Shown: in pieces, positions 11,013 to 21,300 of the stretch
Layout of the letters: each line of letters begins with the position of its first letter
Numbering within the stretch: the stretch's first letter is position 1
Assembly: GCF_030127105.1 (NCBI RefSeq)
Contig: NZ_CP126161.1
Coordinates: 620,001-684,000, forward strand
DNA: 64,000 bases
Direction of reading: 5' to 3'
Source: Haloarcula pelagica
GTDB lineage: Archaea > Halobacteriota > Halobacteria > Halobacteriales > Haloarculaceae
Notes under the pieces: model-generated
Told to the model about the DNA's origin: nothing
What the model saw: the letters and a program-made list of their open reading frames with translations, nothing else
Databases searched by the model: none
Position numbers and translations under genes: made by a program

Positions 11013-11029
11013 ATGAGTGCCGAGGCCGC
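11013..11029 (+). repeat. Direct repeat copy 1 (left)
   Basis: TGAGTGCCGAGGCCGCT; an exact match to the copy at 13832-13848 and a 14/17 match to the copy at 11935-11951. It lies 126 bases before the antitoxin start. The two exact copies bracket the toxin-antitoxin, DUF389 and toxin-remnant segment. Confidence 0.7.
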
Positions 11030-11124
11030 TATTATTGAGGGTAGAAGGCGTCTCTGAGGGTATCTAGTTGTGGCCACGGTAGACATAGGCCCCGGTCAGA
11101 TTCCCGCCGAGCAGGCAGACACGG

Positions 11125-11131
11125 ATTTATG
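11125..11131 (+). promoter_or_regulatory. TATA box of the antitoxin-toxin pair
   Basis: ATTTATG, 25-31 bases before the ATG at 11156, is at the spacing expected for a leaderless haloarchaeal transcript. Confidence 0.5.
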
Positions 11132-11155
11132 AACGTTGCCGAGTAATCACACGGT

Positions 11156-11407
11156 ATGGCCGCCGAAATTTCCGACCGGGTACGAGAAATCGCGGAGGCT
11201 CGCGGCCTTCCAGAGTCCGAGGTGTTCGAACGGGCACTGGAACGCGGTCTCGAAGACCTGTGGGAGGACCTCGTACTCGCACAGTACCTCGACGGCGAAC
11301 TCAATCGCGAGGAGGCCATCGAGCGCGTCGGTCGGACGAAAGTCGAGCGAGCGGACCGAGAGCGTGAGGTCGTCGAGGAAGATGTCGACTGGGGCCTGAA
11401 CGCGTGA
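11156..11407 (+). CDS. Antitoxin of a PIN-domain toxin-antitoxin pair
   Basis: This 83-residue, strongly acidic, helical protein (RVREIAEARGLPESEVFERALERGLEDLW region) looks like the UPF0175-type or ribbon-helix-helix-type antitoxins that precede DUF3368 PIN toxins. Its stop overlaps the GTG start of the toxin by 4 bases (GTGA), the typical coupled arrangement. It should bind and block the toxin and probably represses its own promoter, with a TATA box 25-31 bases upstream. Base composition is less GC-rich than the surrounding chromosome. The exact antitoxin family is not certain. Confidence 0.75.
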   Translation: MAAEISDRVREIAEARGLPESEVFERALERGLEDLWEDLVLAQYLDGELNREEAIERVGRTKVERADREREVVEEDVDWGLNA

Positions 11408-11874
11408 CGCTTGCGGCTGTCTCAGACGCGGGACCGCTCATTCACCTCGCCGAAATCGGTTCGCTCGAACTGCTCTCGACGTTTGACACACTACTCGTAC
11501 CAGAGACGGTTTACGAGGAAGTCGAGGCCGGTGGTGTTCCGGACGAGTTTGCCGACCTCTCGTACGAACTCGTCGAAGCCGATGAAAGCCAGGTCGGGGC
11601 TAAAGAACTGGACGCCGGAGAACGCGCCGCGATTGCGGTCGCTGAAGAGCGGGGCATCGTTCTTCTAACCGACGACCTCGCCGCCCGAGAGGCAGCGTCC
11701 GACGCGGGCGTAGAAGTACACGGCTCTATCGGCGTAATTGCGTTCGGTTACGCTCGGGGATTACTAGATAGAGATGAGGCGGCGTCACTCATGCGAGCAC
11801 TCCAGCGTCAAACAAGTCTCTTCGTGACCGAGGCAGTCGTAGAGCGCGGCATCCAGATGCTGGACGAACAGTAA
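11404..11874 (+). CDS. PIN-domain toxin (DUF3368 type)
   Basis: The 156-residue protein is a predicted VapC-like ribonuclease. The acidic PIN residues can be read: D in VSDAGPLIHL at the N terminus, E in VYEEVEAGG, E and A in LDAGERAAIAVAEE, and D in LLTDDLAARE. The C-terminal part GSIGVIAFGYARGLLDRDEA is typical for DUF3368. It starts with GTG overlapping the antitoxin stop. Its last 27 codons and about 75 bases of downstream DNA are repeated at 13696-13848, where only a broken second toxin remains. Confidence 0.85.
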   Translation: MTLAAVSDAGPLIHLAEIGSLELLSTFDTLLVPETVYEEVEAGGVPDEFADLSYELVEADESQVGAKELDAGERAAIAVAEERGIVLLTDDLAAREAASDAGVEVHGSIGVIAFGYARGLLDRDEAASLMRALQRQTSLFVTEAVVERGIQMLDEQ

Positions 11875-11934
11875 CGAGACGAACGGGCACTAAAGCCGTG
11901 CTAACCACATTCACTATGGATAGATTGTGAGTCG

Positions 11935-11951
11935 TGAGTGCAGAGGCCACC
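11935..11951 (+). repeat. Direct repeat copy 2 (imperfect)
   Basis: TGAGTGCAGAGGCCACC matches the 17-base repeat at 14 positions. It lies 61 bases after the toxin stop, in the same place relative to the toxin end as copy 3 relative to the toxin remnant (55 bases). Confidence 0.6.
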
Positions 11952-11977
11952 CTTCAGCGTCGATAGCCCCACCACAC

Positions 11978-13258
11978 TCACCTGCCGTCGTATCGTTGTC
12001 TCTCGACGAACTCTACCCGGACGGTCACGTCTCGACCGGTCGTTCTCGAGATAGCCTGACCCAGATCCGCGGCGAGCGTCGGGTAAGACTGATGTGCCGG
12101 TCGGCCGACGACCACCGCAACGCCAGGCGGTTCGGATCCGGGGACGAAGACGAAGTCCGTCTGCGTCCGAATCAGTTCCAGGTCCTCGTACTCACTATCG
12201 TCGAGGACTCCGTCGACCGCCCCGTTGACATCGTTCTCGAAGGACGCCTGCAGAGTGAAAGTCACACCGGTGGCGACCACGAGAGCGATCAAGACGAGGG
12301 ACGCTGCCGACGTTCGAATCGACGGAAGTCCACCCTCGTCGTCTCTCGGTTTGTAGCCGAACGCTCGGAGAGTGGCGTAGCCCGCCGCGTTGACCGCGAC
12401 GATGTTGGCGACGAGCAGAACCAGGGCACCGATGGCCACGCTCGGGGCGTTCCAGGCGATACCCACCCCGACGGCAGCGGCGGCCGGGATGAGCGCTGCG
12501 GCGATCATCACCCCGACGAGCGACACCGGCAGCGCCGTCGCGAGGCCCACGGCGCCCGCGATACCCGCCGCCAGACCGACGGCCAGCGTGAGCAGCCCCG
12601 GTGAGGTGCGCTCGCCGATCTCGGCGATGGTTTCCAAGTGTACTACCGGGGAGACGGAGCCGAGCGACTGCAGCGCGACGCCGAAGACTGCGCTGGCGAG
12701 GACGGCGAGCGAGAGACTCAGGACCTGAGCACGCACCCCGCGTTTCAGCATGGACCAATCGCGCATGGTCGTACCGACGCTGGCAGTGAGCGCCGACCCT
12801 ACCTGTGGGGCGATGACCATCGCGCCGACCACGAGCGCCGCGGAGTTGAGCAGCAGGCCCGCGACGGCGACGAGTGTGCTGACGACGGTCATCACGTAGT
12901 ATGCCGCCGGATCGGGATGGAGCGACAGCGCGGTCGAGCGGAGTTCCTCCGGCGAAACGCTGTCGCCCTCCTCGGTCCCAGTGATGAACCGGTCCTCGAG
13001 CGCGTCGAAGTGCTCGGTCTGAGCCATCTCGGCGTTGACCGCGACGAAATACCGACCCGTAACCCCGGTCTCGTCGAGACGGTCGCGGACGTACTCGACC
13101 GCCTGGTTCGGGAGCGGGAATTCGACGAGCAACTCTTCGCTCGTCTCGGCACCGCTGGTGACGCGTTCGAAACTGACGTGATCGATGTCCTCGTCGTCGA
13201 GTACGGACAGCACAGCGTCGAGGTCGTCCTCGTCGACGAGGATCTTTACCAGTCGCAT
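11978..13258 (-). CDS. DUF389 (TIGR00341) family membrane protein
   Basis: The 426-residue protein has a soluble N-terminal ferredoxin-like region (about 1-110; MRLVKILVDEDDLDAVL), then about six membrane helices (about 120-345; VVSTLVAVAGLLLNSAALVVGAMVIAPQ is split by the characteristic hydrophilic turn ALTASVGTTMRD), then a soluble C-terminal part. The family is widespread and uncharacterised. The frame continues upstream, but the start at 13258 is chosen because family members begin at the MRLVKI strand. It lies within the segment bracketed by the exact 17-base direct repeats. Confidence 0.85.
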   Translation of the reverse strand: MRLVKILVDEDDLDAVLSVLDDEDIDHVSFERVTSGAETSEELLVEFPLPNQAVEYVRDRLDETGVTGRYFVAVNAEMAQTEHFDALEDRFITGTEEGDSVSPEELRSTALSLHPDPAAYYVMTVVSTLVAVAGLLLNSAALVVGAMVIAPQVGSALTASVGTTMRDWSMLKRGVRAQVLSLSLAVLASAVFGVALQSLGSVSPVVHLETIAEIGERTSPGLLTLAVGLAAGIAGAVGLATALPVSLVGVMIAAALIPAAAAVGVGIAWNAPSVAIGALVLLVANIVAVNAAGYATLRAFGYKPRDDEGGLPSIRTSAASLVLIALVVATGVTFTLQASFENDVNGAVDGVLDDSEYEDLELIRTQTDFVFVPGSEPPGVAVVVGRPAHQSYPTLAADLGQAISRTTGRDVTVRVEFVERQRYDGR

Positions 13259-13337
13259 GAGTAGCCGCGGGACCGCGTCCGTGAACGGATTGGCCCCGAA
13301 CCGTCCGTGGTCTCGACGAAGCGATGCTCGCCCCTCA

Positions 13338-13580
13338 TCAGAGCAGGAGCGAGACGAGCGCCAGCACAAGGAAGATGATGACGAACCACTTCGCAACTGT
13401 CATCGTGACACCCGCGACGCCCCGGGCGCCCACGATGGCAGCGACGATCGCGATGACGAAAAACACGACGGCCCACTGGAGGAACTCTCCCGACATCACG
13501 AGCGGCATGGAAGTCACCTGTTCGAACGTCATCACGGGGTCGCTCGACGATATCAACGATACAGAGGTCATACGGATCAC
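13338..13580 (-). CDS. Small DUF1328-like membrane protein
   Basis: The last 52 residues contain two hydrophobic helices: WAVVFFVIAIVAAIVGARG, and then KWFVIIFLVLALVSLLL. This is the pattern of the DUF1328 family of about 55 residues. The longest reading gives 80 residues from 13580, but an internal ATG at 13496 gives a 52-residue protein of family length; that shorter start is the better one. It lies 79 bases upstream of the DUF389 gene on the same strand, so they may form one unit. Function is unknown. Confidence 0.7.
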   Translation of the reverse strand: MIRMTSVSLISSSDPVMTFEQVTSMPLVMSGEFLQWAVVFFVIAIVAAIVGARGVAGVTMTVAKWFVIIFLVLALVSLLL

Positions 13581-13639
13581 AGAGATATCGACCCGTTAGT
13601 TATTCTGTGACTAGGACCCAAGAGAGCGAGTTACGAACG

Positions 13640-13777
13640 AATTATCGCGCTTCGCTATCTCCTCGGTCAGATAGAACCGGAGTTGCATCCCGAGTGCGAG
13701 CACTCCAGCGTGAGATGAGTCTCTTCGTGACCAGGGCAGTCGTGGCGCGTGACATCCGTATACTGGACGAGCAGTAA
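13640..13777 (+). pseudogene. Decayed 3' end of a second PIN (DUF3368) toxin
   Basis: The last 27 codons match the end of the intact toxin at 11793-11874: ALQREMSLFVTRAVVARD here against ALQRQTSLFVTEAVVERG there, both ending LDEQ-stop. GCGAGCACTCCAGCGT is identical at 13696-13711 and 11793-11808, and both copies are exactly the same distance from their stop. Upstream (13640-13690) similarity continues weakly and needs a frame change, and no antitoxin or toxin N terminus remains. The similarity also runs past the stop to the 17-base repeat, so this is a remnant of a duplicated cassette rather than convergent sequence. Confidence 0.8.
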
Positions 13778-13831
13778 CCGGACAAGCGAACGCTATCGAC
13801 GCGGTGTTCACTCTAGATCGATCCTGAGACG

Positions 13832-13848
13832 TGAGTGCCGAGGCCGCT
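13832..13848 (+). repeat. Direct repeat copy 3 (right)
   Basis: TGAGTGCCGAGGCCGCT, identical to copy 1 at 11013-11029. It follows the toxin remnant by 55 bases. The preceding TTCACT and GAT-N-GAT spacing is also shared with copy 2. Confidence 0.7.
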
Positions 13849-13944
13849 TCTCCGTAGAACCGGGCCACACGCCAGCCGGTGACCTGGCTGACAGCACAGT
13901 CCGGACCACCGACACGTATCCGTCTGGCGCGAAAACGGGCGGGC

Positions 13945-15030
13945 ATGAGTCGGGAGACGCTCGGGGGGCTGTCGCGGTCACGTGCGGCCTGGTGGCTGCT
14001 CGCGGCGGGCGCCCTCGGCGTCGTCGGGTTCGTCGCCTGGACGCTCGTCGGGCCGCTGGTGCTCGGACTCGGTCTCTACTACGCCGCTCGTCCGCTCGCG
14101 CGACGGCTCCAGCCGCGCCTCCCCGACGGCGTCGCGGCGGCGCTCCCGCTGTTTGGCCTGTTGGTCCCGGCACTGGCCGTCGTCACCGTCCTCGTCGCTG
14201 TCGGGTTACAGGAACTCTCGGCGATAGACGGGCGGCAGGCGGCGCCGGTTCTGGACCTGCTCGGCCCGTACGTCGAGGAGTCGGTCGCCCGTAATCCGCG
14301 GTCACTGCTCCGGGACCCGACCGTCGAGAACCTCCGCCGGGCGCTGACCGTCGGTCTGCAAGTGGCCGGCGCCGTCATGGGCGGGGTGCTCCGGGTGACG
14401 CTGGCGTTCGCGCTGGCGTTTTTCCTCCTGCGGGACGACGACCGGGTCGCCGACTGGCTCCGGACCACGCTCGGCCCGGACAGCGAGGGGTACGCGTTCG
14501 CTCGCAGGGTCGACAGCGACCTGCACACAGTGTACTTCGGGAACGTCCTGACCGTACTCATCGTGACGATCGTGGCGACGCTGTTCTACAACGGGTTCAA
14601 CCTCGTCGCGCCACAGGCCCTGACGATCCCGCTGCCGACGGTGCTGGGGATCGCCACGGGGTTCGCGACGTTCGTCCCGATCGTCGTCGGCAAGTTCGTC
14701 TACGTGCCGGTCGCGCTGTCGATCGTCGCCCGGGCGCTCGTCACCGACGGCACCTTCGTCGGTTACGTGGTCGGGTTCGTCGTCGGGGCGTTCGTCCTCC
14801 TCGACGTGCTCCCGGTGATGGGGATTCGGCCGTACCTGTCGGGGCGAGACCTCCACGGCGGGGCGATGATGTTCGCGTACGTCCTCGGGACGGTACTGTT
14901 TGGCTGGGCCGGACTGTTTCTGGGGCCGCTGTTGCTGGTCGGCATCCTGCGGGTCGCTCACGACGTGCTTCCCGCACTCGTCCGGCGGGAGCGTGTCGCA
15001 ATCAGCGGCGGCGACCCCGGCGAGGAGTGA
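13945..15030 (+). CDS. AI-2E family (PerM-like) transporter
   Basis: The 361-residue protein has the family pattern: two or three N-terminal helices, a soluble loop (about 90-145), a long helix pair LRVTLAFALAFFLLRDDDR, then a C-terminal group with the conserved segments IPLPTVLGIATGFATFVP and YLSGRDLHGGAMMFAYVLG. The last of these matches the conserved P/G-x-x-x-G-x-x-L region of the family. Substrates differ widely (autoinducer-2, sodium/proton exchange in halophile members), so none is assigned. The start is set at ATG 13945 because the earlier open frame is intergenic-like. Confidence 0.85.
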   Translation: MSRETLGGLSRSRAAWWLLAAGALGVVGFVAWTLVGPLVLGLGLYYAARPLARRLQPRLPDGVAAALPLFGLLVPALAVVTVLVAVGLQELSAIDGRQAAPVLDLLGPYVEESVARNPRSLLRDPTVENLRRALTVGLQVAGAVMGGVLRVTLAFALAFFLLRDDDRVADWLRTTLGPDSEGYAFARRVDSDLHTVYFGNVLTVLIVTIVATLFYNGFNLVAPQALTIPLPTVLGIATGFATFVPIVVGKFVYVPVALSIVARALVTDGTFVGYVVGFVVGAFVLLDVLPVMGIRPYLSGRDLHGGAMMFAYVLGTVLFGWAGLFLGPLLLVGILRVAHDVLPALVRRERVAISGGDPGEE

Positions 15031-15106
15031 GCCGACGGGGAGTGCCCCCCTCACGACGAGTCGGACAGCCGAAAGGCCCGAGTGTCCGACCGTGTGAGTG
15101 CGGACG

Positions 15107-16225
15107 ATGACTGGCACGGAGCGGGGCGAGAGCTTCGGCGCGTTCTTCAAGCGGTACGCACGGACGTGGCACCACGCCGTCGCGACGGCGGCACTGACCG
15201 CGCTCGGGACACTGACCGTCCTCCACCGGCTCTTTGCTCTCCTGGCGCTGCTGGCGTACGTCCTGCCGCCGGTGGTCCTCTACGCGCGTTCCCGATCGGA
15301 CGCCGGTAGTGACAGCGCAGGCGACTCCCACAGCGAGCACCACGGGAGTGGCGAGCCGGCGTGGACGACGCGGACGGTCCCCACCGACGAGGCGCTCACC
15401 GACGTGACGGTCGACGGTGGCCGTGCGTACGCGGTCGGGGCGGCTGGAACCGTGCTGTGTGACGACGGCGACGGGTGGGAGGAGGTCGTCGCCGACGGGC
15501 CGGAGGCACGGTCGACCGCACTGGCGGGCGTCGCCGCGACGGGAACGGGGGCCGTCTGGGTCGCCGGTGACGCCGGGACCGTCGCCAGAATCGACGCGGA
15601 GACGGGCCGTCACGTCTCGTACGCCGAGCCGGACGGCGACACGACGAACGTGGTCGCGCTCGGTGCCGCCGGGGCCGCCGACGGGGAGACGGTGCTGCTG
15701 GCGGACGGGTCGGGCCGACTCCGGCGCGGTCGGTACCGCGACGGCGAACTGGCGTGGGACGAACCGACGACGCCGGGGAGTGGCTCCAGCGTGAGCGGTG
15801 TCGCCCTCTCGACCCCGTCGACGGGCTTCGTCTGTGACACGAACCAGGCGGTGTTCCGGACGACGGACGGCGGGCGGACGGCCGACCGGATCGGTCTCGA
15901 CGCCCCCGGGACGCCGACGGATCTGGCGGCGGCCGGTGCCGACGGCTGTCTGGTGAGTGACGACAGCGGGGCGGTCAGCCGGTACGACGGGAGGCAGTGG
16001 ACGCCGGACCGAGTCGCCGACAGCGCGGTCGCCGCGGTCGCCACGCGGGACGGACAGTGTCTCGCCAGCGGCCCGGCCGGGACGGTGTTCGAGCGGGACG
16101 GCGACGGCTGGACGCGGGTCGCGACGCCAGCGACGGTGCCGCTGGACGCGGTGGCACTGGGCGAAGACAGGGCCGTGGCTGTCGGGGCCGACGGCACCGT
16201 CGTCGAACGGGTGGCCGTCCCGTAA
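15107..16225 (+). CDS. Membrane-anchored beta-propeller (YCF48-like) protein
   Basis: The 372-residue protein has two N-terminal hydrophobic helices (about 25-60), an acidic linker, then repeated units of about 40-45 residues with the pattern DVTVDGGRAYAVGAAGTVLC, GVAATGTGAVWVAGDAGTV and so on through the C terminus. Such repeats of a G-T-V strand after an A-V-G loop are typical of YCF48/sialidase-type propellers. It probably displays a propeller outside the cell. A GTG 9 bases earlier is in frame, but ATG 15107 is preferred. I see no enzyme motif. Confidence 0.75.
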   Translation: MTGTERGESFGAFFKRYARTWHHAVATAALTALGTLTVLHRLFALLALLAYVLPPVVLYARSRSDAGSDSAGDSHSEHHGSGEPAWTTRTVPTDEALTDVTVDGGRAYAVGAAGTVLCDDGDGWEEVVADGPEARSTALAGVAATGTGAVWVAGDAGTVARIDAETGRHVSYAEPDGDTTNVVALGAAGAADGETVLLADGSGRLRRGRYRDGELAWDEPTTPGSGSSVSGVALSTPSTGFVCDTNQAVFRTTDGGRTADRIGLDAPGTPTDLAAAGADGCLVSDDSGAVSRYDGRQWTPDRVADSAVAAVATRDGQCLASGPAGTVFERDGDGWTRVATPATVPLDAVALGEDRAVAVGADGTVVERVAVP

Positions 16226-16354
16226 GCGGGCGCCGACTATCGCGGGAGGGGTGTGGACACCGCTCGGACGGAGTTCACCGCCCGGAAGCCGGCTGCCGAA
16301 CTGCCGGAGGGACATCGGAGACGAGTTACCGACGGCTACCGCGGGTAAGGAGCC

Positions 16355-16360
16355 TATTAC
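16355..16360 (+). promoter_or_regulatory. TATA-like element before the ATP-grasp pair
   Basis: TATTAC within AGCCTATTACAAATC, 36-41 bases before the start at 16396, is the only AT-rich patch in this intergenic region. Confidence 0.4.
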
Positions 16361-16395
16361 AAATCCCGCGACGCGTGCCGTCTGCAGGCATACCC

Positions 16396-17472
16396 ATGTC
16401 CGGGCTGCTCGACGGTGTTCGGTCCTTCCTCAGGGCAGAGGCGCGGAACGTTCGCCGGTACGACGTGCCCTGGGAGCGGCGGCTCTGGCTGTACGCACAC
16501 GGGTTCCTCTCGTCGAAGGCGCCGCTGTGGGACCTCCGTGAGGAGACCGTGGACCAGTATCTCTCGGATGTCGAGTACCGATCGGTGAACGGCCTCTCAC
16601 ACTACGCCGAAGGGCTCGGCAACAAGCTGTTGTTCCATCTCCTGCTCGCGCCGTCACACGGGGCGGTCCTCCCCACACTCCACGGCCTGGTCCGAGAGGG
16701 GCACCTGCTGGACACCGCGCGGTTCGACTGGGCGACGACGTTCGACGACCTTCACGACCGCATCCGGAACGGATCGATCGTCGCGAAACCGATCACGGGC
16801 GCGCAGGGAAACGGTGTCAGGATACTCGACAGCGACGACGGCGCGGTCCGGATCGACGGCACCCCAGTCCCCGACGACGAACTCCTCTCCCGACTCCCGG
16901 ACGGCCAGGACCTCTTGCTCGAAGAACACGTCTCGGCCGCGGACTACGCGAGCGAGGTCTTCCCGCAGTCGACGAACACGCTGCGACTGCTCACGATGAT
17001 CGATCCGGCGTCGGGGACGCCGTTCGTCGCGGCGGCCAGTCACCGGTTCGGGACCGCCCAGAGCGGCACCACCGACAACTGGTCCGCCGGCGGGCTCAGC
17101 GCCGGAGTCGACCTCGATACGGGGCAACTGGGGGCGGCGGTCACGAGTCCGGCCGGCGAGGGCCGACCCGGGACACGGCTGGCGCGCCATCCCGACACCG
17201 GTGCCCGGATCAGTGGTGTCGAAGTGCCGGGCTGGGAGCGCGTGAAAGCGACCGTCCGTGATCTGGCGGGCGCGTACGGCTGGCTGTGGCCCCACGTCGG
17301 CTGGGACGTTGTGGTCCGGACCGACGCCGGTGAGATCACCGTGCTGGAGGGCGATCCCCAGTCCGTCGACCCGGACCAGCAGGCACACGGCCCGCTGCTC
17401 ACGGACGAGCGTGCGCGGCGGTTCTACGAGCACCACGGCGTCCTCTCGAACCCGTGGAGACGGTGGACATGA
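16396..17472 (+). CDS. Sugar-transfer-associated ATP-grasp enzyme
   Basis: The 358-residue protein matches the ATP-grasp type linked to sugar-transfer loci. K131 and the glycine-rich loop (VAKPITGAQGNGVRIL) bind ATP. STNTLRLLTMID (about 195) and DNWSAGGLSAGVDLDTG (about 230) are highly typical of this family, and the metal-binding end is TVLEGDPQSVD. It should ligate a carboxylate to an amine or hydroxyl on a precursor of a surface polymer or small molecule. Its stop overlaps the next ATP-grasp gene by ATGA, so two ligases are made together. Substrates are not known. Confidence 0.85.
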   Translation: MSGLLDGVRSFLRAEARNVRRYDVPWERRLWLYAHGFLSSKAPLWDLREETVDQYLSDVEYRSVNGLSHYAEGLGNKLLFHLLLAPSHGAVLPTLHGLVREGHLLDTARFDWATTFDDLHDRIRNGSIVAKPITGAQGNGVRILDSDDGAVRIDGTPVPDDELLSRLPDGQDLLLEEHVSAADYASEVFPQSTNTLRLLTMIDPASGTPFVAAASHRFGTAQSGTTDNWSAGGLSAGVDLDTGQLGAAVTSPAGEGRPGTRLARHPDTGARISGVEVPGWERVKATVRDLAGAYGWLWPHVGWDVVVRTDAGEITVLEGDPQSVDPDQQAHGPLLTDERARRFYEHHGVLSNPWRRWT

Positions 17473-18719
17473 CACCGGACGGCGAGGACGGCGTGCTCGT
17501 CCTCGACAGCGACGGCCAGTGTGCGCTGAGTATCGTCCGTTCACTGGGGAGCAAGGGTATCCCCGTCACCGCGGGGAGCAGTACGCCGTGGTCGCTGGGC
17601 CGGCTCTCGCGGTACAGCGACGACTGGTACGTCTATCCGGACCCGACGCGGGACTGCCGGGCGTTTCTGGAAGTGTTGCAGTCACACCTGGACCAGTCCG
17701 ACTACGACATCGTGATCCCCGCGAACGACGCGACGGCGCTGCTCGTGGCACAACACAAGCCGACCCTGGAGGCGACCGGGACCCGCGTCGCCTGCGAGGA
17801 CTGGCCGACCTTCCGTCGGGTATACGACAAAGGAGCGCTGTTCGAGACCATCTCGCCGCTCGATGTCCCCACCCCCGAGACACACAGCCCGGAGTCGATC
17901 GAGGCGGTGGAGGCGATGGCCCCGGACCTGGACTACCCGGTCGTCGTCAAGCCCCGGAGCAAGAGCCACCTCGTCGACAACGCCGTCGAGACCACGCTCG
18001 TGACCGACGACAACTACGCCCGGTCACCCGCGGAGTTAGTGCGTACCTACCGCCGGTTCGTCGAGGGACACGAGGGGCTGACTCGCCAGTATCCGCTCGT
18101 CCAGGCGTACGTTCCCGGCCGGACGACCACGACGGTCGGGCTGGCGATCGAGGGGACGTTCGTCGAGTTCTTCCAGGAAGTACGGCTGCGGACCTACCCC
18201 GCGTCCGGCGGGAACTCGGCACTGCTCGGATCGATGCGGGACCGGACGATGCTCGACCACGCCGAGACGGTCCTGACGGCCGTCGACTGGACCGGGCCGG
18301 CGATGGTGGAGTTCATGCAGACTCCGGACGGCGAGTTCTCCGTCATCGAGGTCAACGGCCGCTACTGGGGCTCGCTTCCCTTCGCGATTGAGAGCGGCGT
18401 CGACATCCCCTGGCACCACTACCGACACCTCATGGGACACCGGCCGGTCAACCCCCGTCCGAGCGGGGCCTACCGGACCGACATCGTCCAGCGGCGGCTG
18501 TTCTACGAGGACTGCAAGTGGCTCGTCGAGAACCTCGCCCGCGGGAACGTCGCCGCTGTCGCACCGTTTCTCGGTGACTTCCTGCGCACCCGACACACCT
18601 TCGTCGACGACGACGACCCGCTGCCGACCCTGGCGGTGCTGGCACAGGCCGGCTGGCTCGGCTCGACGACAGGCTGGGCGGAGCTCCGGGGGGCGATCGA
18701 CCGGTTCACCGGTTCCTGA
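17469..18719 (+). CDS. ATP-grasp carboxylate-amine ligase
   Basis: This 416-residue protein has an N-terminal Rossmann-like pre-ATP-grasp domain (GVLVLDSDGQCALSIVRSLG), ATP-binding lysines (YPVVVKPRSKSH, then PLVQAYVPGRTTTT) and the metal-binding motif FSVIEVNGRYWGSLPFA. It resembles the CarB/D-Ala-D-Ala ligase-like proteins used in polysaccharide and natural-product clusters. ATG 17469 overlaps the previous stop by 4 bases; an in-frame GTG at 17454 is less likely. The 3' end overlaps the convergent gene by 14 bases. Confidence 0.85.
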   Translation: MTPDGEDGVLVLDSDGQCALSIVRSLGSKGIPVTAGSSTPWSLGRLSRYSDDWYVYPDPTRDCRAFLEVLQSHLDQSDYDIVIPANDATALLVAQHKPTLEATGTRVACEDWPTFRRVYDKGALFETISPLDVPTPETHSPESIEAVEAMAPDLDYPVVVKPRSKSHLVDNAVETTLVTDDNYARSPAELVRTYRRFVEGHEGLTRQYPLVQAYVPGRTTTTVGLAIEGTFVEFFQEVRLRTYPASGGNSALLGSMRDRTMLDHAETVLTAVDWTGPAMVEFMQTPDGEFSVIEVNGRYWGSLPFAIESGVDIPWHHYRHLMGHRPVNPRPSGAYRTDIVQRRLFYEDCKWLVENLARGNVAAVAPFLGDFLRTRHTFVDDDDPLPTLAVLAQAGWLGSTTGWAELRGAIDRFTGS

Positions 18720-19917
18720 CCGCCTGGAGATACGTAGCCAGGGCGTAACAGGGCCAGGCCTGACACCAGCGCATCAGCGTCGTCCGCTCGGTGTACAGTC
18801 GGTGTTTCCTGAAGGCGAACCGCCCGCCGCCGACGTAGAGGGTATCGAGCAGCCACGCGACGATGCGGCCGGCGAAGGCGTGGTCCCCGGCAGCGGTAAA
18901 CGCCAGGATTCCCTGTGCGGCCGCGTGGACATCTCGGGGGTACGACGCCGTCTCGTCCCAGTTGGGCGCTCCGTCGGCCCGGAACAGCGACCGCCGGAGG
19001 AAAGCGAGCGCGTCGGCGAGCGACTCCGCGTATCTGTCCGTCCCGGTGACCTCGTGGTACCGGAGCAGCGACTCGACGACGAAGCAGTTGTGGTGGGTGT
19101 CCATCGAGAGGTGTGAGGCGCTGGCCGGGACCCGGTAGTACCAGCCGCCCCGGTCGGTCTGGTGGCCGACGACGAAGTCGAGCAACGCCGCGGCCCGTTG
19201 GCGGAGGCGGTCCCGGCCGACCCGTTCGTAGAGGTCGAGGAAGGTCTGTGCGGCCATCGCGGTCGCGTTGAGCGTGTGCTGGGCCGGCCGGTCCTGCGGG
19301 TAGTAGTCGATCCGGGCGGTGCCGTCGACCGTCCGATACCGCATGTCCTCGACGAGGAACCGTTCGGCGGTCCGGGCGATGTCGGCGTAGCGGTCGTCGT
19401 AGTCGGCCGCGGCCAGCAGTCCCTTCACCGCGACGGCGGTCGTCACGACATCGGGTTCGGCGGGTGTCGTCTTGTGGTCGAGGTGCTGGTGGTCGTGGCG
19501 GTGGCCGCCACAGAACCCGCTGTACCCCCGACAGCGGTTGTCGACGAGCCAGTCGGCCAGCCGACACGCCGCCGCCCGGTGGTCGAAGCCGTCGTGTTCC
19601 GGGGGGAGTCGATCGAGGATTCGGTGGACGAGCACGAACAGGCCGGCGCCCATGAAGCTCCGGCGCTGCTCGACGAGAAACAGCGGCCGGACGTTGACCG
19701 GTGTCCGTTTGATCCCCTCCTGGAACGCGAGGTTCAGCCACCGGTTCTCGACGGGGAGCGCGGTCCGGAAGCGACTGCTCAGCCCGTCGGCGTAGTCCCA
19801 GCCGGTGTACTCGCGGTCGGCAGCGTAAGCCAGCGCCTGTTCGAGGACCTGACGGGCGCGGTCGGTGTCGGCCGGAGGGACCGACGGTGACCGCGCCGCG
19901 GCCGGTGACTGGTGCAT
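18706..19917 (-). CDS. Alpha/alpha-toroid (terpenoid-cyclase/glycosidase-like fold) protein
   Basis: The 403-residue, helix-rich protein has repeated blocks that end in GGW or G-x-F turns (HQTDRGGWYYRVPAS, GHRHDHQHLDHKT, YVGGGRFAFRKHRLY), as in alpha/alpha barrels. Histidine clusters near residues 145-155 (HRHDHQHLDH) may bind metal. Haloarchaeal relatives often carry misleading transporter names; there are no membrane helices here. Being opposite to, and overlapping, the ATP-grasp pair and next to a sulfatase-fold enzyme, it may process a glycan or lipid-linked polymer, but this is context only. Confidence 0.7.
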   Translation of the reverse strand: MHQSPAAARSPSVPPADTDRARQVLEQALAYAADREYTGWDYADGLSSRFRTALPVENRWLNLAFQEGIKRTPVNVRPLFLVEQRRSFMGAGLFVLVHRILDRLPPEHDGFDHRAAACRLADWLVDNRCRGYSGFCGGHRHDHQHLDHKTTPAEPDVVTTAVAVKGLLAAADYDDRYADIARTAERFLVEDMRYRTVDGTARIDYYPQDRPAQHTLNATAMAAQTFLDLYERVGRDRLRQRAAALLDFVVGHQTDRGGWYYRVPASASHLSMDTHHNCFVVESLLRYHEVTGTDRYAESLADALAFLRRSLFRADGAPNWDETASYPRDVHAAAQGILAFTAAGDHAFAGRIVAWLLDTLYVGGGRFAFRKHRLYTERTTLMRWCQAWPCYALATYLQAVRNR

Positions 19918-19980
19918 GGGCCGTTCGCCTGCCGGGTTTCGCCGTCCCGGGCTTGGTTATGTCGCGGTTACCGGGGACGC

Positions 19981-21300
19981 TCAGTAGTAGCCGAGCGCGG
20001 CCAGTTGCTCCTTGGTCGCGTCGCTGGCCTGGCGGCCCTCCAGTGGCTCACGCACCCCTGGCTGTGCCTCGGTGAACGCCTCGTCGACCCGGTGCGGTTC
20101 GATCCGCTCGCTCCGCGAGACTGCTCCGGGGCCGTGGATGCGGCACTCGGCGGCCGTCTCCCCCCAGTAGTACCGTTTCCGAACGGCACGCTCGTCGTCC
20201 GGGTCGGGACGGTAGACGGCCCGACTCGGGGCCAGGAACTGCGACGGGTCCACACAGGCGTCTTCGAACCGCTCGCGAAGGTCGGCCGTCACGGGCTGTT
20301 TGGTCGTGAGAACCCGGTCACGAGCGAATCCGTCGACGATCGGCTCCCCGTCGAGGGCCGACTCGACGACCGACGGGAACGCGGTCAGCGCGGCGGGCCG
20401 GTGACACCGCCGGCCGTCGCCACCACCGGGCGGACGGACCACGAGCGGGACGTACAACAGCGTCTCGTGCATCGGGACGATGTGCGAGACGGCGGGCGGT
20501 TCGTCCGGGAGCAGGCCCGGGCGGCCGAACCCGTCGCCGTGGTCGCCACAGATCACGACGAGCGTCTCGTCGAGCACGCCGTCGTCGCGGAGGCGGCCGA
20601 GCAGTCGCTCGACGAGAGCGTCGGCCTGTCGGATCCCCCCGTCGTAGAGGGCTTCGAGTCCGTTCAGTTGCCAGTACGGTCTGTCGCCGCCGTGGAACGC
20701 CCACTCCCAGCGCGTCGGGAGGTCCCGCTGGAGCGCCCTGGCCTCGTCGTCGCCCCAGCGGTCGAACGCCGCCCGGGGTTCGAACGGCCGGTGGGCGTCC
20801 ATGAAGTTGACACAGGCGGCCCAGGGGCCGTCCCGGTCGGTGACCCACGAGTCGAAGCTATCGGCGTAGTAGAACCCGTCGGGGCCGGGGTTCAGCGCCG
20901 TCGTGTCGTAGCCCCCGGGACAGGAGTCGGGGACCGTCTCCACCGTCTGGAAGGCGTCTTTGAGGCCGACCTTGTGGCTCGCGACGAACCCGTTCTCCGT
21001 GAACAGGCCGGTGTCGTACCCCTCGGCAGCGAGCGTCTCGAACACCGTGTTCCCCGGGAGCAAGCGGTCGTGGACCGTCACCCTGTGTTCGTGGGCCTCC
21101 AGTCCCGTAAAGAGGGAGACGTGGCTCGGCAGACTCCAGTTCGACGGCGCGCGGGCCTGGGTGTACACCGTCGACTCCGCGGCCAGCGACTCCAGAAACG
21201 GTGTGGTCGGCCGTCGGTGGCCGTACAGCGAGCAGTTGTGTGCTCGAACGGAGTCCAACACCACGAGCAAGACGTTCGGTGCCGTCTCGACGCCAGACAT
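19981..21300 (-). CDS. Sulfatase / alkaline-phosphatase-superfamily enzyme with Ser nucleophile
   Basis: The 439-residue protein has the metal-binding start NVLLVVLDSVRAHNCSLYG (D16), the nucleophile region SNWSLPSHVSLFTG and the second metal cluster VVICGDHGDGFG. The sulfatase position that would carry Cys/Ser-x-Pro-x-Arg is S56-L-P-S-H: Ser rather than Cys and His rather than Arg. A formylglycine-dependent type I sulfatase is therefore doubtful; a phosphoglycerol- or phosphoethanolamine-transferase-like or phosphodiesterase role is equally possible. No signal peptide or membrane helix is seen, so it may act inside the cell. Confidence 0.8.
   Translation of the reverse strand: MSGVETAPNVLLVVLDSVRAHNCSLYGHRRPTTPFLESLAAESTVYTQARAPSNWSLPSHVSLFTGLEAHEHRVTVHDRLLPGNTVFETLAAEGYDTGLFTENGFVASHKVGLKDAFQTVETVPDSCPGGYDTTALNPGPDGFYYADSFDSWVTDRDGPWAACVNFMDAHRPFEPRAAFDRWGDDEARALQRDLPTRWEWAFHGGDRPYWQLNGLEALYDGGIRQADALVERLLGRLRDDGVLDETLVVICGDHGDGFGRPGLLPDEPPAVSHIVPMHETLLYVPLVVRPPGGGDGRRCHRPAALTAFPSVVESALDGEPIVDGFARDRVLTTKQPVTADLRERFEDACVDPSQFLAPSRAVYRPDPDDERAVRKRYYWGETAAECRIHGPGAVSRSERIEPHRVDEAFTEAQPGVREPLEGRQASDATKEQLAALGYY

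Follow-up and report, generated by a model that had tools for sequence, protein, structure and literature searches.

A 64,000-nucleotide stretch of the Haloarcula pelagica genome (NZ_CP126161.1, positions 620,001 to 684,000; hereafter the window) contains two overlapping genes for ATP-grasp ligases and, convergent with them, a gene for an all-alpha toroid protein. On balance, we regard this trio as a module for tailoring a surface glycan: the toroid protein would remodel a uronic-acid sugar and the ligases would amidate it. An original prediction, made from the letters of the window, had grouped the three genes with an adjoining sulfatase-fold gene in a small biosynthetic unit; open reading frames, together with profile scores or a fold model, agree with all four genes at their predicted coordinates (Table 1). 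The two ATP-grasp genes do overlap and are coupled as predicted, with an ATGA common to both. The ligase pair and the toroid gene are convergent and therefore form two transcription units.

The pairing of toroid and ligase recurs across haloarchaea. Of the 293 genomes covered in the order, 87 have the toroid, 44 have ligase 1 and 199 have matches to the ATP-grasp profile of ligase 2. Around 80 toroid neighbourhoods were compared, chosen from the matches and not at random, four of them entered first via ATP-grasp matches; their genes were called by a simple codon-usage script and then clustered, and the deacetylase label used below rests on annotated equivalents. Of 91 toroid genes, 13 have an ATP-grasp gene within 600 bp and 21 have one within 5 kb; a hand estimate that assumes roughly two ATP-grasp genes of this kind in a 3.8 Mb genome gives a chance expectation of about 0.1 adjacent locus. 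Mapped onto a maximum-likelihood toroid tree, the ATP-grasp-adjacent state requires five changes, at least four of them forced by starred branches, compared to a mean of 12.4 when the states are shuffled. The ligase stop and toroid start overlap by 4 bp in two clades. The toroid-paired ATP-grasp proteins fall into three subfamilies, 19–26% identical between subfamilies, and all three, each with a toroid, are common to the window's genome and Halapricum (ligases 46–57% identical).

The window's genome carries ligase–toroid pairs at three loci (C1:637 kb, which is the window, C1:2.015 Mb and C2:406 kb). Halapricum has its three pairs together in a single surface-glycan region, which also encodes Gfo/Idh/MocA, nucleotide-sugar dehydrogenase, GT2, WecB, deacetylase, FemAB/GNAT, phosphodiesterase-like and asparagine-synthase-like proteins. 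Four Halapricum genomes have ligase 1 followed by ligase 2, with the toroid alongside, and a second variant of the trio (ATP-grasp, toroid, ligase 1 paralogue) is present in the same region of genome G034. The Halapricum trio, the G034 variant and the repeated pairing indicate that the toroid and the two ligases belong together. Scattering of the genes in relatives, which the original prediction had named as the observation that would count against a unit, was seen for the sulfatase-fold gene and for ligase 2 of the window type; the Halapricum trio, in contrast, is not scattered. A syntenic stand-alone cassette of ATP-grasp, toroid and FemAB genes, with no glycan-assembly genes nearby, was observed in Natrialba-like haloarchaea (L024, L084, L093, L095, L106 and L108).

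AlphaFold2 modelling of the toroid protein from seven sequences gave an all-alpha structure (pLDDT 76.9, pTM 0.81); the predicted fold is clearly of the toroid, or (alpha/alpha)-barrel, type, a fold from which the reaction cannot be read. Foldseek matched the model to GH76 mannanases, cellobiose/glucose 2-epimerases, GH88 enzymes and type II terpene cyclases (E ~1e-6, TM-scores mostly 0.45–0.65). Several enzymes of the AGE superfamily gave TM-scores of 0.53–0.65 at E ~1e-6, equal to GH76 and GH88 and near the terpene cyclases. Profile searches with the toroid returned no Pfam or NCBIfam family over threshold, and no match to the AGE superfamily profile PF07221 at E-values up to 5. Homologues of 24–27% identity were found in Methanosarcina, Vibrio, Pseudoalteromonas and Burkholderia, and 23 columns are invariant in eleven toroid sequences spanning haloarchaea to Burkholderia; these include D41, D44, N75, Y205, Y261, H276, D329, H331, Q335 and R383. 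Toroids with and without an ATP-grasp partner are 46–65% identical and have the same invariant residues. Database names for members of the family include 'hypothetical protein' and, in L160, L162, L165, L167 and plasmid records, 'antibiotic ABC transporter permease', 'prenyltransferase/squalene oxidase' or 'aspartate-semialdehyde dehydrogenase'; we find no support for the last three. Assignment of the toroid as a terpene cyclase/prenyltransferase or a LanC-like protein was rejected, as the likeness in fold and profile is weak and the glycan neighbours argue otherwise.

These glycan neighbours provide the functional context for the toroid family. At least two glycan-assembly families are encoded within 8 kb of 68 of 93 haloarchaeal toroid genes, with WecB near 43 of the 93, nucleotide-sugar dehydrogenase near 35, GT4-like glycosyltransferases near 48 and FemAB/GNAT proteins near 48; glycan neighbourhoods of toroid homologues were found in Haloferax mediterranei, Natronorubrum, Methanosarcina, Pseudoalteromonas and Vibrio. 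The cluster of Haloferax mediterranei comprises DegT, Gfo, dehydrogenase, WecB, deacetylase, toroid and GNAT genes. DegT, Gfo/Idh and acetyltransferase genes often stand beside the WecB and dehydrogenase genes, and together we take these to be the gene set for N-acetylmannosaminuronic acid (ManNAcA) or its 3-acetamido form. The window's genome also has a complete glycan cluster on a second replicon (C2:306–350 kb; L069, L188 and L189), headed by a fourth toroid and including WecB, dehydrogenase, Gfo/Idh, DegT, hexapeptide acetyltransferase, glycosyltransferases and a flippase; WecB, dehydrogenase, oxidoreductase, aminotransferase and hexapeptide acetyltransferase, which this genome encodes together, are the set known as WbpABEDI for diacetamido-mannuronic acid. 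The original prediction had read the missing glycosyltransferases of the window as the sign of an unusual acceptor. The Halapricum pairs, which adjoin GT2, WecB and dehydrogenase genes, and the complete cluster elsewhere in the window's own genome give no support to this; a surface polymer, one of the two products that the prediction had suggested, is the likeliest target.

The toroid locus in Vibrio is a vps operon, as seen from its matches to VpsD (9e-157) and VpsF (8e-149), and WecB and dehydrogenase genes are also present. The toroid of the window is a full-length homologue of the vps-operon toroid (tblastn 3e-24, 91% coverage), which has a GT4 gene on one side and a WecG/TagA-type gene on the other; we take this interval to be the place of VpsJ, and our label for the family, the VpsJ slot, rests on this gene order. 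The vps-I-type operons thus resemble the archaeal clusters in having a homologous toroid (25–27% identity over the whole length) together with WecB and dehydrogenase, and the amidated uronic acid of the Vibrio polysaccharide (VPS) parallels the amidation proposed for the archaeal module. They differ from the window, where the trio stands apart from any glycan-assembly gene. The VPS of V. cholerae contains a glycine-amidated N-acetylgulosaminuronic acid (GulNAcA), proposed to arise from ManNAcA by C5 inversion (PMC3901696), and the function of vpsJ has been described as unknown (PMC5109742).

A precedent for such a reaction on an all-alpha fold is Agl32 of Halobacterium salinarum, a D-glucuronyl C5-epimerase of N-glycosylation with an AGE-like architecture (PMC13308652). 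Like the toroid, Agl32 has a single all-alpha domain, and it acts on a haloarchaeal glycan; its nearest solved structures are cellobiose 2-epimerases (PMC13308652). Agl32 genes lie in aglB islands, whereas the toroids mostly lie elsewhere: ten genomes had no toroid homologue within ~20 kb of aglB, most toroid matches are far from aglB, and no oligosaccharyltransferase is annotated in a 29-kb region around the toroid of Natronorubrum bangense. Agl32 is also described as having few His, Glu or Tyr residues in the active-site regions of other epimerases (PMC13308652), a description that sets it apart from the toroid with its invariant His276, His331, Tyr205 and Tyr261. Identity of the toroid with Agl32 was rejected, since the aglB islands compared are without a toroid. 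A second parallel, by description, is AglQ of Haloferax volcanii, a predicted AGE/GH88-like isomerase at the hexuronic acid step of the N-glycan, which, unlike the toroid, lies in the agl cluster (PMC3827465). The FemAB, deacetylase, asparagine-synthase-like and WecB genes that recur beside toroids also recall bacterial PEP-CTERM/XrtA exopolysaccharide clusters, with their sets of FemAB, deacetylase and amidotransferase; the toroid-neighbour FemAB, however, scores far below the TIGR03019 cut-off (52.7 against 260.35).

The two ligases belong to the same families as the PF14397 (sugar-transfer associated ATP-grasp) and PRK06849-type proteins, but the window pairs both with a toroid. Ligase 1 further differs in having an aspartate for the asparagine metal ligand: the Glu-x-Asn metal-binding motif, E-x-N in all eight of the more distant PF14397 matches listed, is EGD in ligase 1 (window 17337–17360) and in its four Halapricum orthologues (L151–L154; 54–56% identical). 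Despite this, its predicted PF14397 fold assignment stands. Ligase 2 belongs with the CPSase-like ATP-grasp proteins, with K160, E280, E293 and N295 invariant across the alignment, and falls short of the NCBIfam equivalog cut-offs (61 against 406 bits for PRK06849, 49.5 against 271 for PRK12767). Its orthologue in Halapricum, 57% identical, adjoins ligase 1. The AlphaFold2 model of ligase 2 (pLDDT 54) was too poor to draw on. In two other genomes (G084:C1 687–694 kb and G095:C6 244–250 kb), three to four PF14397 ATP-grasp genes stand next to one another in arrays.

What was observed directly comprises the gene content, the coupling and repeated linkage of the genes, their glycan surroundings in relatives and the conservation of candidate catalytic residues; the substrate, the reaction, the order of steps and the cell-surface location of the products are what we infer. 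The GulNAcA of VPS, vpsJ, the WecB/dehydrogenase clusters and the Agl32 precedent lead us to favour a uronate-remodelling toroid with amide-forming ligases. The toroid would be a carbohydrate-active enzyme that alters a uronic-acid sugar's configuration within a lipid-linked or growing glycan, with C5 epimerization of a ManNAcA-type residue as the candidate reaction. The ligases would activate a carboxylate with ATP to form an amide; its two partners are most likely the carboxyl group of the uronic acid and either an amino acid or an amine. A bolder extension, which we advance only tentatively and hold to be doubtful, makes the toroid the founding member of a new family of uronate C5-epimerases, in archaea and Vibrio-type operons, that produce L-gulo aminouronic acids, with the ATP-grasp partners, of three distant subfamilies, amidating the sugar after its inversion and with toroid plus ligase as a transferable cassette for peptide-like decoration of surface glycans in archaea.

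Several observations weigh against this assignment. The enzyme activities of the toroid family and the ligases are predictions from sequence, and the fold of the toroid is equally similar to hydrolases (GH76, GH88) and to terpene cyclases. The substituted metal ligand of ligase 1 could mean an altered activity. Ligase 2 of the window type occurs without a toroid in several genera, at six loci with none within ~10 kb, and no ATP-grasp gene was seen in the vps-type operons of Vibrio and Pseudoalteromonas, where a PaaK-like ligase is found instead. Most of the ATP-grasp-adjacent toroid loci are those that lack glycan genes nearby, a distribution that would also fit a separate small-molecule route; the glycan assignment is therefore weaker for stand-alone modules.

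This last observation is the starting point for a different product, a soluble peptide-like or amide metabolite such as a compatible solute, made by the ATP-grasp enzymes and the toroid, perhaps with a GNAT or FemAB protein; the toroid would modify a small sugar or amino-sugar part and the glycan link would be purely ancestral. Of the toroids paired with ATP-grasp genes, most belong to the 25 toroid genes that lack two nearby glycan-assembly families, several modules (L032, L036, L084 and L093) consist of just a ligase, a toroid and an acyltransferase, and the GNAT protein of L036 bears a very weak likeness to beta-lysine acetyltransferase. We nevertheless consider this rather unlikely, given that the orthologous pairs in Halapricum lie inside a glycan cluster, that polymer tailoring typically involves FemAB-type enzymes and asparagine-synthase-like genes, and that paired and unpaired toroids, with their invariant residues unchanged, are 46–65% identical. 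A second alternative leaves the glycan in place and alters the chemistry: as a glycoside hydrolase or uronate lyase, the toroid would trim or turn over the glycan during assembly and would not be an epimerase. GH76 mannanase is the top Foldseek match, with GH88 also among the matches, there is weak Pfam likeness to GH88 (17.6 bits) and of the Vibrio homologue to GH76/GH127, and the conserved Asp41, Asp44 and Asp329 could serve as acid/base. The AGE-superfamily epimerases score equally well, however, and Agl32, a C5-epimerase from archaea, shares the all-alpha AGE-like architecture (PMC13308652); moreover, the toroid N-terminus is without a hydrophobic stretch and the genes lie among those for cytoplasmic sugar-activating enzymes. 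A hydrolase or lyase is thus a possibility to be taken seriously, though a minority one beside a uronate-remodelling toroid.

The sulfatase-fold gene does not belong to the module. In G014, the closest relative compared, an orthologue 81% identical is present with the same flanks and without the toroid or ligases; there the sulfatase directly adjoins the flanking genes (80–96% protein identity), with ~107 bp between the matching blocks. A window stretch of ~8.9 kb, including the toroid and both ATP-grasp genes, is missing from G014, with its right edge in the interval that separates toroid from sulfatase. Whether an insertion or a deletion took place, the backbone includes the sulfatase and excludes the trio; with a single informative relative, the two events are not distinguishable, and the trio would have been gained or lost within the 8.9-kb stretch. 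Membership of the sulfatase in the predicted unit is thus contradicted, and a reading of all four genes as one biosynthetic unit is improbable, even though they are adjacent, the sulfatase lies upstream of the toroid on the common strand with 63 bp between them, and another sulfatase-fold protein adjoins ligase 1 in Halapricum; that protein is of a different subfamily (cluster 17, as opposed to cluster 20 for the window). The window's enzyme belongs to the sulfatase-fold/alkaline phosphatase superfamily by its PF00884 score and, as predicted, has a serine in the nucleophile place (W-S-L-P-S-H); several of its cluster-20 relatives have T-L-P-S-H, with threonine at this place. The formylglycine-sulfatase signature [CS]-x-P-x-R is absent from the protein, its arginine being replaced by histidine, and identity as a formylglycine sulfatase was rejected; with S-L-P-S-H here and threonine in relatives, alkaline-phosphatase-superfamily enzyme is the better name.

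The 8.9-kb stretch also encodes DUF389, AI-2E-type and Ycf48-like proteins and a ribbon-helix-helix/PIN-like pair (window 11156–11874), the latter with weak Pfam matches and a G+C content at third codon positions (GC3) of 0.61–0.70 against ~0.88 around it; this is a probable toxin–antitoxin pair. Within window 11016–13845, the short motif TGAGTGCCGAGGCCG is found at the left edge of the stretch and, slightly altered, twice more at ~11928–11948 and 13829–13845, and a 127-nt direct repeat (74%; 11766–11892 and 13669–13795) brackets the DUF389 gene; the motif copies and the repeat may mark serial insertions. The low-GC pair and the short direct repeats at the left edge, together with a patchy distribution in which the toroid is found only in the window's genome and G018 among the sampled genomes of the genus, would fit a trio that is a decaying or neutral passenger of a genomic island, functionless in this genome. 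All frames are intact, however, their GC3 of 0.86–0.89 is backbone-like and the residues of ligase 2 and the toroid are conserved, which makes a functionless passenger very improbable.

Table 1. Features of the window discussed in the text, with positions numbered from the first nucleotide of the window.
Feature	Position	Strand	Evidence
ATP-grasp ligase 1 (ATPgrasp_ST, PF14397)	16396–17472	+	hmmscan 96.8 bits, cut-off 31.4
ATP-grasp ligase 2 (CPSase-like/PRK06849-like; ATG start at 17469)	17469–18719	+	PF02786 25.0, cut-off 19.8
ATGA stop/start overlap of ligases 1 and 2	17469–17472	+	Sequence
All-alpha toroid protein (VpsJ-slot family)	18706–19917	-	AlphaFold2 model, Foldseek, homologues in glycan clusters
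14-bp overlap of convergent 3' ends, ligase 2 and toroid	18706–18719		Open reading frame coordinates
Sulfatase-fold enzyme, S-L-P-S-H motif	19981–21300	-	PF00884 101.5 bits, cut-off 25
Stretch without counterpart in G014, carrying the trio	11029–19980		blastn/tblastn, window against G014 locus L147

In the literature searched, no paper was found that links ATP-grasp enzymes, a toroid and a polysaccharide. The toroid family has neither a Pfam model nor fitting names, yet it occurs in 30% of the sampled haloarchaeal genomes and in vps-type operons. Two questions become jointly testable: the identity of the enzyme behind the L-gulo aminouronic acid in Vibrio polysaccharide, and the presence of amide-linked amino acids on the surface glycans of haloarchaea. 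The recurrent pairing of the family with ATP-grasp ligases provides a concrete set of genes for deletion.

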